Assembly: GCA_020442425.1 (NCBI GenBank)
Contig: JAGRKB010000040.1
Location: 1-64,000, forward strand
DNA: 64,000 bases
Direction: 5' to 3'
Source of the DNA: Alphaproteobacteria bacterium
GTDB lineage: Bacteria > Pseudomonadota > Alphaproteobacteria > Micavibrionales > Micavibrionaceae
The notes under the pieces were generated by a model that was not told the DNA's origin, searched no databases, and saw only the letters and a list, made by a program, of their open reading frames with translations. Shown in pieces: positions 7,685 to 12,596 of this stretch; positions within the stretch are counted from its first letter, which is position 1, and every line of letters begins with the position of its first letter. The translations under genes and the position numbers were made by a program.

Positions 7685-8002
7685 CTAAAAAATGTACGCT
7701 ATAATTGCGCTATACAGTCCGAACAACAGAAGCAGTACACCTGCAACCATAATTTCCTGGATTTTATAGTTCACGACATTCCGCAAAAACCCTTTATCCT
7801 CATCATAATCTGATGTTCTTTCATATAGTAGCTTACCCCCAATACCCAAAATCACAGGGAGGCCTGCCCCGATAAAGAACACTCTAAAAAAAGAACTCCA
7901 ACTTTTTTCCATTATTGCGTTTCCGCCAGCATAAAAGGTAAGGACAACCATCCAAAAAGCCAGCAGTCCTTTGAATATTTTTCCTAGAGTTCTATCGTCC
8001 AT
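7685..8002 (-). CDS. Small membrane protein in the gcv operon
   Basis: This is a 105-residue protein of no recognised family with about three hydrophobic segments (near residues 8-27, 35-55 and 82-103) separated by short charged loops. An in-frame start further upstream (8110) would overlap the hydrolase gene. The ATG at 8002 begins one base after the hydrolase stop codon region and gives a sensible protein. Tight spacing to both neighbours (hydrolase ending 8004, gcvPB starting 7674) places it in the glycine cleavage operon. Its role there is unknown. Confidence 0.65.
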   Translation of the reverse strand: MDDRTLGKIFKGLLAFWMVVLTFYAGGNAIMEKSWSSFFRVFFIGAGLPVILGIGGKLLYERTSDYDEDKGFLRNVVNYKIQEIMVAGVLLLLFGLYSAIIAYIF

Positions 8003-8003
8003 T

Positions 8004-8780
8004 CTAGAATCTCTCGAACCATGTGTATGTTTTTTGGACCAGATCGTGGGCGGTTTTTCCTTTGCCGAAAATGTGATCAGCTCCTTTGATTTTAACTTTG
8101 CCTTTTTCACACTCCAAGTCTTCGAAAAGCATGTTCGGGTCTTCGCCTAGCCAGCTATTCTCAGCCAGAACAACTAATGAAGGAGTGTTGATTTTTCCTG
8201 CCAAATTCTTTGCAACATCTCTTGTTAGAGATTTTACTTCCTCAATCGAATCTTTTCCGACCATAAATTTAAATCGCCCATCGCGTTCGAAATATTTCCC
8301 TGACGCGTCCAACCGCGCGTTTAACACCCAACGACGCCCGGGGGGCTGATAGGACGGGTCCCAGAATGCGATTGCATCTGCTTGTGGATTGGCGTAAATC
8401 AATGTTAATCCGCCATGAGAATGGCCAATAACGCATAGCTTTTTGTGTTTGGCGCGCACGTGCTCCAAAACTTCATTCAAATCTTGAGCGTGAATAGCCA
8501 ATGTCGTTTCGTGAAGCCTACGATATCCGCTTTCATCGTAATAAAACGCTAATCGATAGACATCATATCCTTTGTCATTAAAATAATCTCTGGCTACTTG
8601 GTGTAATGCCTCTTCCGGTTTGCCTGTGAAGCCATGCCCTATAACAATAGCCTTTTCTGATAGTGTGTCCCCTGCCATATTGAGGCGCACGAAAATTTTC
8701 TTGCCGTCGGAAGCAGTGATATCAAAATCTTTTTCACGGCTTAGGCTTTTATCGATTTCTTCGCGGGATATATCTTCCAT
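8004..8780 (-). CDS. Alpha/beta-hydrolase
   Basis: The 258-residue protein shows an alpha/beta-hydrolase fold: an oxyanion-hole HGF motif (about H49), the nucleophile elbow GHSHGG with the likely catalytic Ser at 121, and a candidate catalytic His in the ADHIF motif near residue 237. It has no signal peptide, so it is probably a cytosolic esterase or acyl/peptidyl hydrolase; the substrate cannot be inferred. Its ATG overlaps the gcvPA stop by one base (TAATG), so translation is coupled to gcvPA. It therefore splits gcvPA from gcvPB, which normally sit side by side. Confidence 0.85.
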   Translation of the reverse strand: MEDISREEIDKSLSREKDFDITASDGKKIFVRLNMAGDTLSEKAIVIGHGFTGKPEEALHQVARDYFNDKGYDVYRLAFYYDESGYRRLHETTLAIHAQDLNEVLEHVRAKHKKLCVIGHSHGGLTLIYANPQADAIAFWDPSYQPPGRRWVLNARLDASGKYFERDGRFKFMVGKDSIEEVKSLTRDVAKNLAGKINTPSLVVLAENSWLGEDPNMLFEDLECEKGKVKIKGADHIFGKGKTAHDLVQKTYTWFERF

Positions 8781-10108
8781 TACAAAATCTCTTTTAAAGC
8801 GGCAATAAGTGCATTGATATCTTCATCGGTCGTCATTTCGGTGGCTGTTACCAAGATTTTATTTCCGTCTAGCGGCAGGCCGGCAATGATCTTTTTATCT
8901 AATAGTTTTTGGCACATATCTTTTGCGCCCATTGGCGTTTCAATGACGAATTCGTTAAAGAATGTGTCATTTACTATTTTGATGCTGCTGATTTGAGAGA
9001 GCGCGTCTGCCAGATCACAGGCGCGTTCATGGTTTAGGCGCGCCAATTGTTTTAGTCCCTCTTCTCCCAGCAAAGCGGCATGGACTGTGAAAGCCAAAGC
9101 GCAGAGGCCTTGATTGGTGCAAATATTTGAGGTCGCTTTTTCGCGGCGGATGTGTTGTTCGCGGGTCGAGAGCGTGAGAACAAATCCGCGCTGGCCGTCT
9201 GCATCTACGGTTTCTCCGCACAGACGACCCGGCATCTGGCGCAGATATTCCTGTTTACAGGCAAAGAATCCGAGATGCGGGCCACCATAAGACATAGGGA
9301 TACCGATACTTTGAGCTTCTCCGCAGACGATATCGGCGTCCGTTGGCGCAGGCAGCAACCCCAGAGACACAATCTCTGTAATCACGACAATTAATTTTGC
9401 GCCAATGGCATCACATTTCTTTTTCCAGTCTGCATAGGCGTGTGGCTTGCCTAAGAAATCGGGGGACTGGACGATAATCGCCGCAATATCACTCAAACTG
9501 TCATCCTGAGGCAATGCCGAAGGATCTCCCTTTAGTTTTTCCAAGAGAGATTCTTCCGCCGGATCAAGCCCGGCGTCAGAATGACAATTCTGTGATCCAA
9601 TATAACTTTCCAGTACTTCGCGGTAATGGGAGTGAAGTTCTGTGCCGATCATCACTTTTTCTCGGCCTGTTATGCGCATCGCCATCAATGCGGCTTCAGT
9701 GCATGAGGTTGCACCATCATACATTGAGGCGTTCGCAACATCCATTCCGGTTAGGCGCGCGATAAAAGTCTGAAATTCGAAAATGACTTGAAGCGTACCC
9801 TGTGCCATTTCCGGTTGATACGGCGTGTAAGATGTCAGAAATTCAGAGCGCTGAATGATGTAATCAACCGTAGCAGGAATATGGTGACGATAGACACCTG
9901 CTCCTAAAAAGAACGGTGCCTCATTCGCCGCTTGGTTTTTGGAAGCGAACGCTGCCATAAAACGTTCGACTTCCATTTCGCCTTGATGATCGGGGAGATC
10001 ATAATTATCTGCTTTTGGTAGAGCCTTAAATAAATCATCGGTTGATTGCACTCCGACTGATTTTAGCATCTCGGCGCGGTCTTGTTGGGTCAACGGCAGG
10101 TAACGCAT
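8780..10108 (-). CDS. gcvPA: Glycine dehydrogenase (decarboxylating) subunit 1
   Basis: This 442-residue protein is the N-terminal half of the split P-protein, partner of GcvPB. The family pattern is clear: FLGAGVYRHHIPATVD, SYTPYQPEMAQGTLQVIFEFQT and YDGATSCTEAALMA. An unusual stretch at about residues 174-206 (CHSDAGLDPAEES to PQDDSLS) is encoded by a palindromic repeat at 9499-9586 (listed separately). It sits in the variable segment before the IIVQSPDFLG strand, so the enzyme may tolerate it. The start is five bases after the gcvH stop. Confidence 0.93.
   Translation of the reverse strand: MRYLPLTQQDRAEMLKSVGVQSTDDLFKALPKADNYDLPDHQGEMEVERFMAAFASKNQAANEAPFFLGAGVYRHHIPATVDYIIQRSEFLTSYTPYQPEMAQGTLQVIFEFQTFIARLTGMDVANASMYDGATSCTEAALMAMRITGREKVMIGTELHSHYREVLESYIGSQNCHSDAGLDPAEESLLEKLKGDPSALPQDDSLSDIAAIIVQSPDFLGKPHAYADWKKKCDAIGAKLIVVITEIVSLGLLPAPTDADIVCGEAQSIGIPMSYGGPHLGFFACKQEYLRQMPGRLCGETVDADGQRGFVLTLSTREQHIRREKATSNICTNQGLCALAFTVHAALLGEEGLKQLARLNHERACDLADALSQISSIKIVNDTFFNEFVIETPMGAKDMCQKLLDKKIIAGLPLDGNKILVTATEMTTDEDINALIAALKEIL
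9499..9586. repeat. Palindromic repeat element inside gcvPA
   Basis: Outer arms TGTCATCCTGA (9499-9509) and TCAGAATGACA (9576-9586) pair at 10 of 11 positions. Inside, an arm near GAAGGATCTC (9519-9528) pairs with GAGATTCTTC (9547-9556) at 9 of 10. Two side hairpins lie between the outer and inner stems: GGC-AAT-GCC and a CGCCGG/CCGGCG hairpin (9557-9575). The whole folds as a branched cruciform. It resembles intergenic palindromes common in many proteobacteria, but here it is in frame within a conserved enzyme gene. Confidence 0.8.
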
Positions 10109-10485: not shown

Positions 10486-10502
10486 GTTCCGCTCTCTCCT
10501 TT

Positions 10503-10529
10503 GTCATCCCCGCGTAGGCGGGGATCCGG
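10503..10529 (+). repeat. 27-bp REP-like repeat, left copy
   Basis: It begins GTCATCCCCGCGTAGG, carries the 6-bp stem CCCCGC/GCGGGG and ends GATCCGG. It is a perfect inverted match to 10840-10866. It lies at the 3' end of the nuclease gene and 17 bp upstream of gcvH, close to where gcvH's ribosome site must be. Confidence 0.9.
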
Positions 10530-10823
10530 TCAAAATAAACTTTCGTACAAACCTTTCCAATCCGGATTCATTTCTTCAATGACCCGCATTTTCCAGACCC
10601 TATTCCATTTCTTCAGTCTTTTTTCTCTCAATATAGCCTGTTCGATAGACTGGTACTGCTCATAATAAACCAGAGTTTTCACTCCATGTTTTGTTGTAAA
10701 GTCACAATTTATATTGTTTTTATGCTCTGAAACTCTCTTTACTAAATCAGATGTTACACCTACATAAAATGTACTATTTCGTGCCTTGGCCAAAATATAA
10801 ACATAAAAAATATCCTTACTCAT
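10530..10823 (-). CDS. GIY-YIG domain nuclease (URI/YhbQ-like)
   Basis: This is a 97-residue single-domain protein. The GIY-YIG signature is FYVYILAKARNSTFYVGVTSDLVKRV (residues 5-30), with the conserved Arg at 29 and a downstream Glu/Asn region. Family members are small endonucleases. I chose the ATG at 10823 because the longer frame starting at 10868 translates the inverted repeat itself (SSPRRRGSG), a common annotation artefact for this family. The ORF ends directly at the left repeat. The upstream and downstream repeats make it the only gene of a small bounded cassette. Confidence 0.85.
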   Translation of the reverse strand: MSKDIFYVYILAKARNSTFYVGVTSDLVKRVSEHKNNINCDFTTKHGVKTLVYYEQYQSIEQAILREKRLKKWNRVWKMRVIEEMNPDWKGLYESLF

Positions 10824-10839
10824 ATCATACAACTCTTTG

Positions 10840-10866
10840 CCGGATCCCCGCCTACGCGGGGATGAC
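10840..10866 (-). repeat. 27-bp REP-like repeat, right copy
   Basis: It is the exact reverse complement of 10503-10529, including the CCCCGC/GCGGGG hairpin. It ends two bases before the gcvT stop codon, so it also abuts the end of gcvT and could act as a partial transcription or mRNA-processing barrier. Confidence 0.9.
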
Positions 10867-10868
10867 AA

Positions 10869-12514: not shown

Positions 12515-12547
12515 TGGATTGCTTCGGGCTTATGCCCTCGCAATGAC
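12515..12547. repeat. Short palindrome ATTGC...GCAAT
   Basis: The stem ATTGC (12518-12522) / GCAAT (12540-12544) continues as GGGC (12526-12529) / GCCC (12534-12537) with a small internal loop. The flanking GGATTGCTTCG and CTCGCAATGAC look like a known type of dispersed intergenic palindrome. Confidence 0.6.
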
Positions 12548-12596
12548 ACTTTTATTTCCTTCGGGTCTTCGATCCTACGCGTTATTTATTCCTACT

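Follow-up and report, generated by a model that had tools for sequence, protein, structure and literature searches.

REP units that carry a CGTC tag form a broad superfamily, which occurs mostly as intergenic head-to-head dimers, with some in-frame intragenic copies of 20-30 amino acids (Di Nocera et al. 2013, PMC3733652). These units have a CGTC tag (with TGTC and CCTC as variants), a stem of 8-9 bp that starts with AT, a loop of 4-5 nt and a tail that is mostly CCA. Several intragenic copies were found in uvrA, polA, truB and tRNA synthetase genes, Micavibrio was reported to carry CGTC-1, and no association with a transposase was reported (PMC3733652). RPE-4 and RPE-6 of Rickettsia were placed in the same superfamily (Di Nocera et al. 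2013, PMC3733652); in the account of Ogata and Claverie, as relayed there, RPEs are palindromes lying in frame in functional genes.

We investigated a palindrome located inside gcvPA in a window of 64,000 nucleotides, which is the whole stretch of DNA analysed (contig JAGRKB010000040.1, assembly GCA_020442425.1). We estimate a probability of roughly 0.87 that a REP dimer inserted in gcvPA, is read through and is tolerated. The identity of the mover is kept out of this figure.

The palindrome in gcvPA

The original prediction placed a branched palindrome in frame inside gcvPA. We obtained exactly the same coordinates, and both units were recovered by pattern match and hairpin scan.

8780..10108, minus strand: gcvPA (glycine dehydrogenase subunit 1), host of the insertion; 442-aa ORF, Pfam GDC-P, NCBIfam GcvPA equivalog
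9499..9586, no strand assigned: 88-bp head-to-head REP dimer, in frame in gcvPA, corresponding to GcvPA residues 175-204
9499..9528, plus strand: REP unit 1, TGTCATCCTGAGGCAATGCCGAAGGATCTC
9547..9586, minus strand: REP unit 2, TGTCATTCTGA-CGCCGGGCTTGATCCGGCG-GAAGAATCTC, with a longer inner stem

The outer arms, TGTCATCCTGA (9499-9509) and TCAGAATGACA (9576-9586), matched at 10 of 11 positions and the inner stem, GAAGGATCTC/GAGATTCTTC, at 9 of 10. Both side hairpins (GGC-AAT-GCC and CGCCGG..CCGGCG) were confirmed as well. The RNA fold of the coding strand reached -50.9 kcal/mol (z = -6.0) and was better than that of 200 out of 200 dinucleotide shuffles. The palindrome lies entirely inside the 442-aa ORF, the frame of which is open over its full length. 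The product matched Pfam GDC-P (E = 4e-117) and NCBIfam GcvPA (560 bits, cut-off 364). Residues 175-204 are CHSDAGLDPAEESLLEKLKGDPSALPQDDS and directly precede LSDIAAIIVQSPDFLG, so the encoded segment sits just ahead of the IIVQSPDFLG strand, as had been predicted.

We also inspected an AlphaFold model of GcvPA, the best fold matches of which were the glycine decarboxylase structures 9a73 and 1wyt. Residues 179-194 and 196-202 had pLDDT values below 50 and were bordered by well-predicted elements; the model was built from a shallow alignment (23 rows) and further loops were also poorly predicted.

The repeat family

The gcvPA element consists of two inverted REP units with TGTC tags outside, i.e. 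a head-to-head dimer. The unit consensus is TGTCATYCTGA, a variable hairpin and GAAGRATCTC. Further copies in the same genome, on which the prediction depended, were found: there were 18 exact units, each half a palindrome, in 2.2 Mb, and 0 matches of the reversed control pattern. Most of the copies lie outside genes and they are often paired head to head, tags outside. Of the 104 genomes of the family, which comprises Micavibrio relatives, 21 contained the dimer pattern and 0 the control pattern; the exact pattern misses diverged copies, and most of these genomes are drafts.

After 5 bp (ATYCT/AGRAT) the stem is interrupted by a tandem G-A; the inner stem that follows has 0-7 bp, and the loops vary in length. 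In 140 of 143 distinct units the Y and R positions of the outer stem were complementary. The inner stem had a mean length of 2.9-3.3 bp, compared with 0.6 bp after shuffling, both in genes and elsewhere. The long inner stem of unit 2 in gcvPA has a similar counterpart in a pepN copy of genome G114 (L280). The tail is CTC in both gcvPA units and in nearly all copies of the genome.

Two other kinds of copies were noted. A third subtype (TGTCATTGCGAGG...GAAGCAATCCA) is represented by one REP-like unit on the minus strand at 12518-12548, in the intergenic region upstream of gcvT. Genome G026 (L287-L296, L325-L328) contains more than 10 near-identical copies of a very uniform dimer of about 70 bp, GTCATCCTGAACTTGTTTCAGGATCT; this uniformity suggests that they may have spread recently.

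We compared the family with the described systems. It shares with the CGTC superfamily the TGTC at both outer ends, the stem starting with AT, and the tags-outside head-to-head dimers, which are partly intragenic. It differs in its stem, which has 5 bp and then the tandem G-A with a very variable inner stem-loop, and in its CTC tail in place of CCA. The interrupted stem, the variable inner hairpin and the tail therefore put it outside the four published CGTC families, which we set apart by their text descriptions. Rfam contained no family matching the gcvPA element, and the literature search returned no relevant paper naming the repeat sequence or its peptide. The likeness to RPEs is one of behaviour, namely in-frame copies in functional genes (gcvPA and 26 other Pfam-verified cases); the gcvPA host belongs to another order of Alphaproteobacteria. 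The palindrome had been said to resemble common intergenic palindromes rather than RPEs. The first half of this claim agrees with the mostly intergenic copies, but the contrast is softer than proposed, as RPE-4 and RPE-6 were assigned to the CGTC superfamily, which the gcvPA element resembles (PMC3733652). In-frame intragenic REPs are already known in Rickettsia and other genera, and the gcvPA family is a variant with a TGTC tag, a G-A interrupted stem and a non-CCA tail.

Candidate movers of the dimer

As in REPINs, an inverted pair of REPs acts here as one miniature element. For GTAG REPs, mobilisation in trans by a Y1 transposase (RAYT/TnpA-REP) has been proposed, and we considered this mover for the dimer as well. 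The tag is TGTC here, unlike the GTAG of the REPIN/RAYT system, and a search of the source genome for Y1_Tnp (PF01797) found none. Y1_Tnp genes were present in 10 of the 21 dimer-bearing genomes, but also in 24 of the 83 dimer-free ones (Fisher p = 0.12), so that we rejected Y1/RAYT as a partner of the dimers for want of a significant association. They were also absent from the dimer-rich genomes G019, G114, G115, G118 and G085, and the Y1 genes examined were not flanked by complete units of the TGTC family. We regard this mover as unlikely. In lacking a significant Y1 association the family again resembles the CGTC superfamily; an association with GIY-YIG genes was seen, however.

A cassette with such a gene lies between gcvT and gcvH, about 1 kb from the gcvPA element.

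10502..10529, plus strand: REP unit of another subtype, TGTCATCCCCGCGTAGGCGGGGATCCGG, flank of the cassette
10530..10823, minus strand: gene for a small GIY-YIG protein, 97 aa from ATG, a candidate REP-associated nuclease (Pfam PF01541, E = 1.5e-14)
10840..10867, minus strand: inverted REP unit identical to that at 10502..10529, opposite flank of the cassette

The GIY-YIG gene is thus enclosed by two identical inverted 28-bp REPs. In same-genus relatives the gap between gcvT and gcvH was mostly 6-40 bp and the GIY-YIG gene was present in none, which indicates that the cassette is an insertion. One locus (L052) has a gap of 62 bp with a lone REP-like unit. Lone units of this kind, of other subtypes, were seen in the gap in both G003 (L052) and G026 (L031). 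These sequences suggest that the gap may be a repeated landing site. In the window, gcvPA and gcvPB are not adjacent: an alpha/beta hydrolase gene lies between them, as does a small hydrophobic ORF (7685-8780).

In the dimer-bearing genomes, inverted CGTC/TGTC REPs flanked 14 of 42 small GIY-YIG genes compared with 14 of 374 other genes (p = 2e-8; the GIY-YIG statistics given here ignore kinship between genomes, and the 374 controls came from loci mostly chosen for dimers, one of the 14 flanked controls being itself a GIY-YIG gene). The two flanks of a GIY-YIG gene were matched in subtype (40 of 42 tail letters identical, permutation p = 5e-5), and dimer-bearing genomes had more GIY-YIG genes than the others (4.6 vs 2.8 per genome, p = 3e-4). 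Among proteins similar to that of the window, REP flanking was observed class-wide in 6 of 22 completely covered loci (0 of 44 neighbouring genes) and phylum-wide in 9 of 25 (1 of 46 neighbouring genes). Outside Alphaproteobacteria the flanks included canonical CGTCATTCCCGCG...CGGGAATCCA units. Most of the best 30 PF01541 matches of the family had no REP flanking, and the association therefore concerns only part of the GIY-YIG genes.

Since GIY-YIG proteins are nucleases, a reasonable model would have them cut at REP hairpins, with repair then driving the copying. On the basis of co-location we tentatively propose that small single-domain GIY-YIG nucleases mobilise CGTC/TGTC REPs, and that the REP-flanked gene would be the autonomous element and the dimers, including that in GcvPA, its non-autonomous derivatives. 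Alternatively, REPs could merely be preferred landing sites for GIY-YIG genes. A small GIY-YIG nuclease is our preferred, as yet unproven, candidate for the mover of the dimer. The literature search found no paper in which "GIY-YIG" and "repetitive extragenic palindromic" occur together.

In-frame dimers in other genes

We read 127 dimers with their flanks and counted as intragenic those inside Pfam-supported ORFs. By this count 27 were in frame and internal to Pfam-verified genes, and the remaining 100 were located elsewhere. Long ORFs over copies without a Pfam hit (L155, L162, L261, L263 and others) are outside the count, as are copies located at the start or end of a gene (L224, L248, L260, L282, L305, L309, L311), which might reflect misread start sites or extensions.

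One case each: pdhB, ileS, valS, rnhB, Mur ligase, dxs, gcvPA, pepN, argS, ispH, truB
Two cases each: purL, purQ, leuS, hemH, polA, uvrA, mnmE, DAO-family oxidoreductase

In genome G019 purL, purQ, ileS, valS, hemH and pdhB all carry inserts, two of them in purL. In 26 of the 27 cases the frame in use gave Q[DN]D for the 3' half of the dimer, although a second frame (LRMT) was also open (p = 4e-7 if both had equal odds). The length of the dimer was divisible by 3 in 1 of 27 copies in genes compared with 28 of 100 elsewhere (p = 0.008). In hemH (L185/L316), mnmE (L283/L315) and the DAO-family gene (L297/L312), two congeneric species share the site of the insert. As these are orthologous pairs, the number of independent cases is about 24. 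Within the pairs the inner hairpins were exchanged or altered on both sides, with frame and pairing intact.

It could be argued that the palindrome was selected in place, either because its hairpin in the mRNA slows translation or makes the gcv transcript more stable, or because the loop that it encodes is of use to the protein. The stable folding of the coding strand (z = -6.0), the persistence of the orthologous copies between species, and the second unit of the mnmE insert, which changed on both stem sides and is still paired, are in line with such a role. The hairpin changes, however, may reflect conversion between copies, hairpin template switching or selection on structure. Moreover, the host genes are unrelated to one another, most copies lie outside genes, and at gcvPA the insert was present in one sampled species only. 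The insert may conceivably act at the level of the mRNA or the protein, but we consider selection in place improbable.

Comparison of gcvPA with relatives

We compared GcvPA with its homologues. The nearest ones among titled records were L055 (Pseudomonadota, 70%) and L095 (Micavibrio sp. DHS20C02, 63%), and the source genome, on sequence grounds, groups with Micavibrio relatives. In four same-genus genomes (G002, G004, G005, G010) about 25 residues were absent exactly at the element, the matched GcvPA segments being 76-84% identical. The element-bearing protein reads IGSQN-(element)-LSDIAA where the relatives have IGSQNIVETADDCAA; in the alignment YIGSQN, 30 aa and LSDIAAIIVQ correspond to YIGSQNIVETADDCAAAIIIQ of L047. 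Neither the same-genus GcvPA proteins (L044-L048) nor those of the wider family contain the stretch. It is therefore not shared with these relatives, and its absence from the same genus, at a net difference of 25 codons, argues for insertion into a variable loop. The element would have entered this loop after the split from the sampled sister species.

The net gain over the nearest relatives was 25 codons, compared with the 30 residues encoded by the element, which means that about 5 ancestral codons were lost or that the loop was different beforehand. In other bacteria the position is occupied by an ordinary variable segment, and the total length of GcvPA is similar. This indicates that the loop is tolerant of length and makes the exact junctions uncertain; no clean target-site duplication was readable at them, as the loop varies too much between species. 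The similar total length could also be taken to mean that the segment was inherited with GcvPA and is palindromic by chance. We find this very improbable, since same-genus and same-family relatives have no such segment, both ends and the centre of its DNA match the repeat family, and no shuffle folded as well.

Outside the insert, dN between gcvPA and its relatives was 0.10-0.19 and dS was 2.4-2.8 or saturated, which shows purifying selection on this part of the gene. Together with the full-length ORF and the profile matches, this bears out the prediction of an in-frame palindrome in an otherwise conserved enzyme gene. The genome is a draft of 117 contigs, but an assembly chimera or a decaying pseudogene is hardly credible given the open frame, this strong selection, the intact gcvT, gcvH and gcvPB around gcvPA, and the occurrence of such in-frame inserts in many independent genomes.

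Discussion

The results are best explained by a REP dimer that inserted in gcvPA, where it is read through and tolerated. The miniature element would insert mostly between genes, where it would be harmless. Within genes the survivors would be insertions in loops, in frame and in a soluble phase, and the phase used would yield a soluble peptide rich in Ser, Gly, Asp, Pro and Gln. In GcvPA the 30 encoded residues would form a tolerated, probably disordered loop, which we infer to be translated in the cell and near-neutral. Three features would let the insert persist: a length and phase that keep the frame open, a tolerant loop, and the solubility of the peptide read in this phase.

These observations extend protein-coding palindromes to Micavibrio relatives, in which 27 in-frame cases allow statistics and one reading phase is strongly preferred. 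As the same kind of insert occurs in some twenty other core enzymes of related bacteria, it appears to be a recurrent route for adding protein loops. The link with GIY-YIG genes is more novel than the in-frame repeat family itself. If this association is causal, it would offer a testable mover for a large class of bacterial repeats, the spread of which has lacked an explanation since their description.
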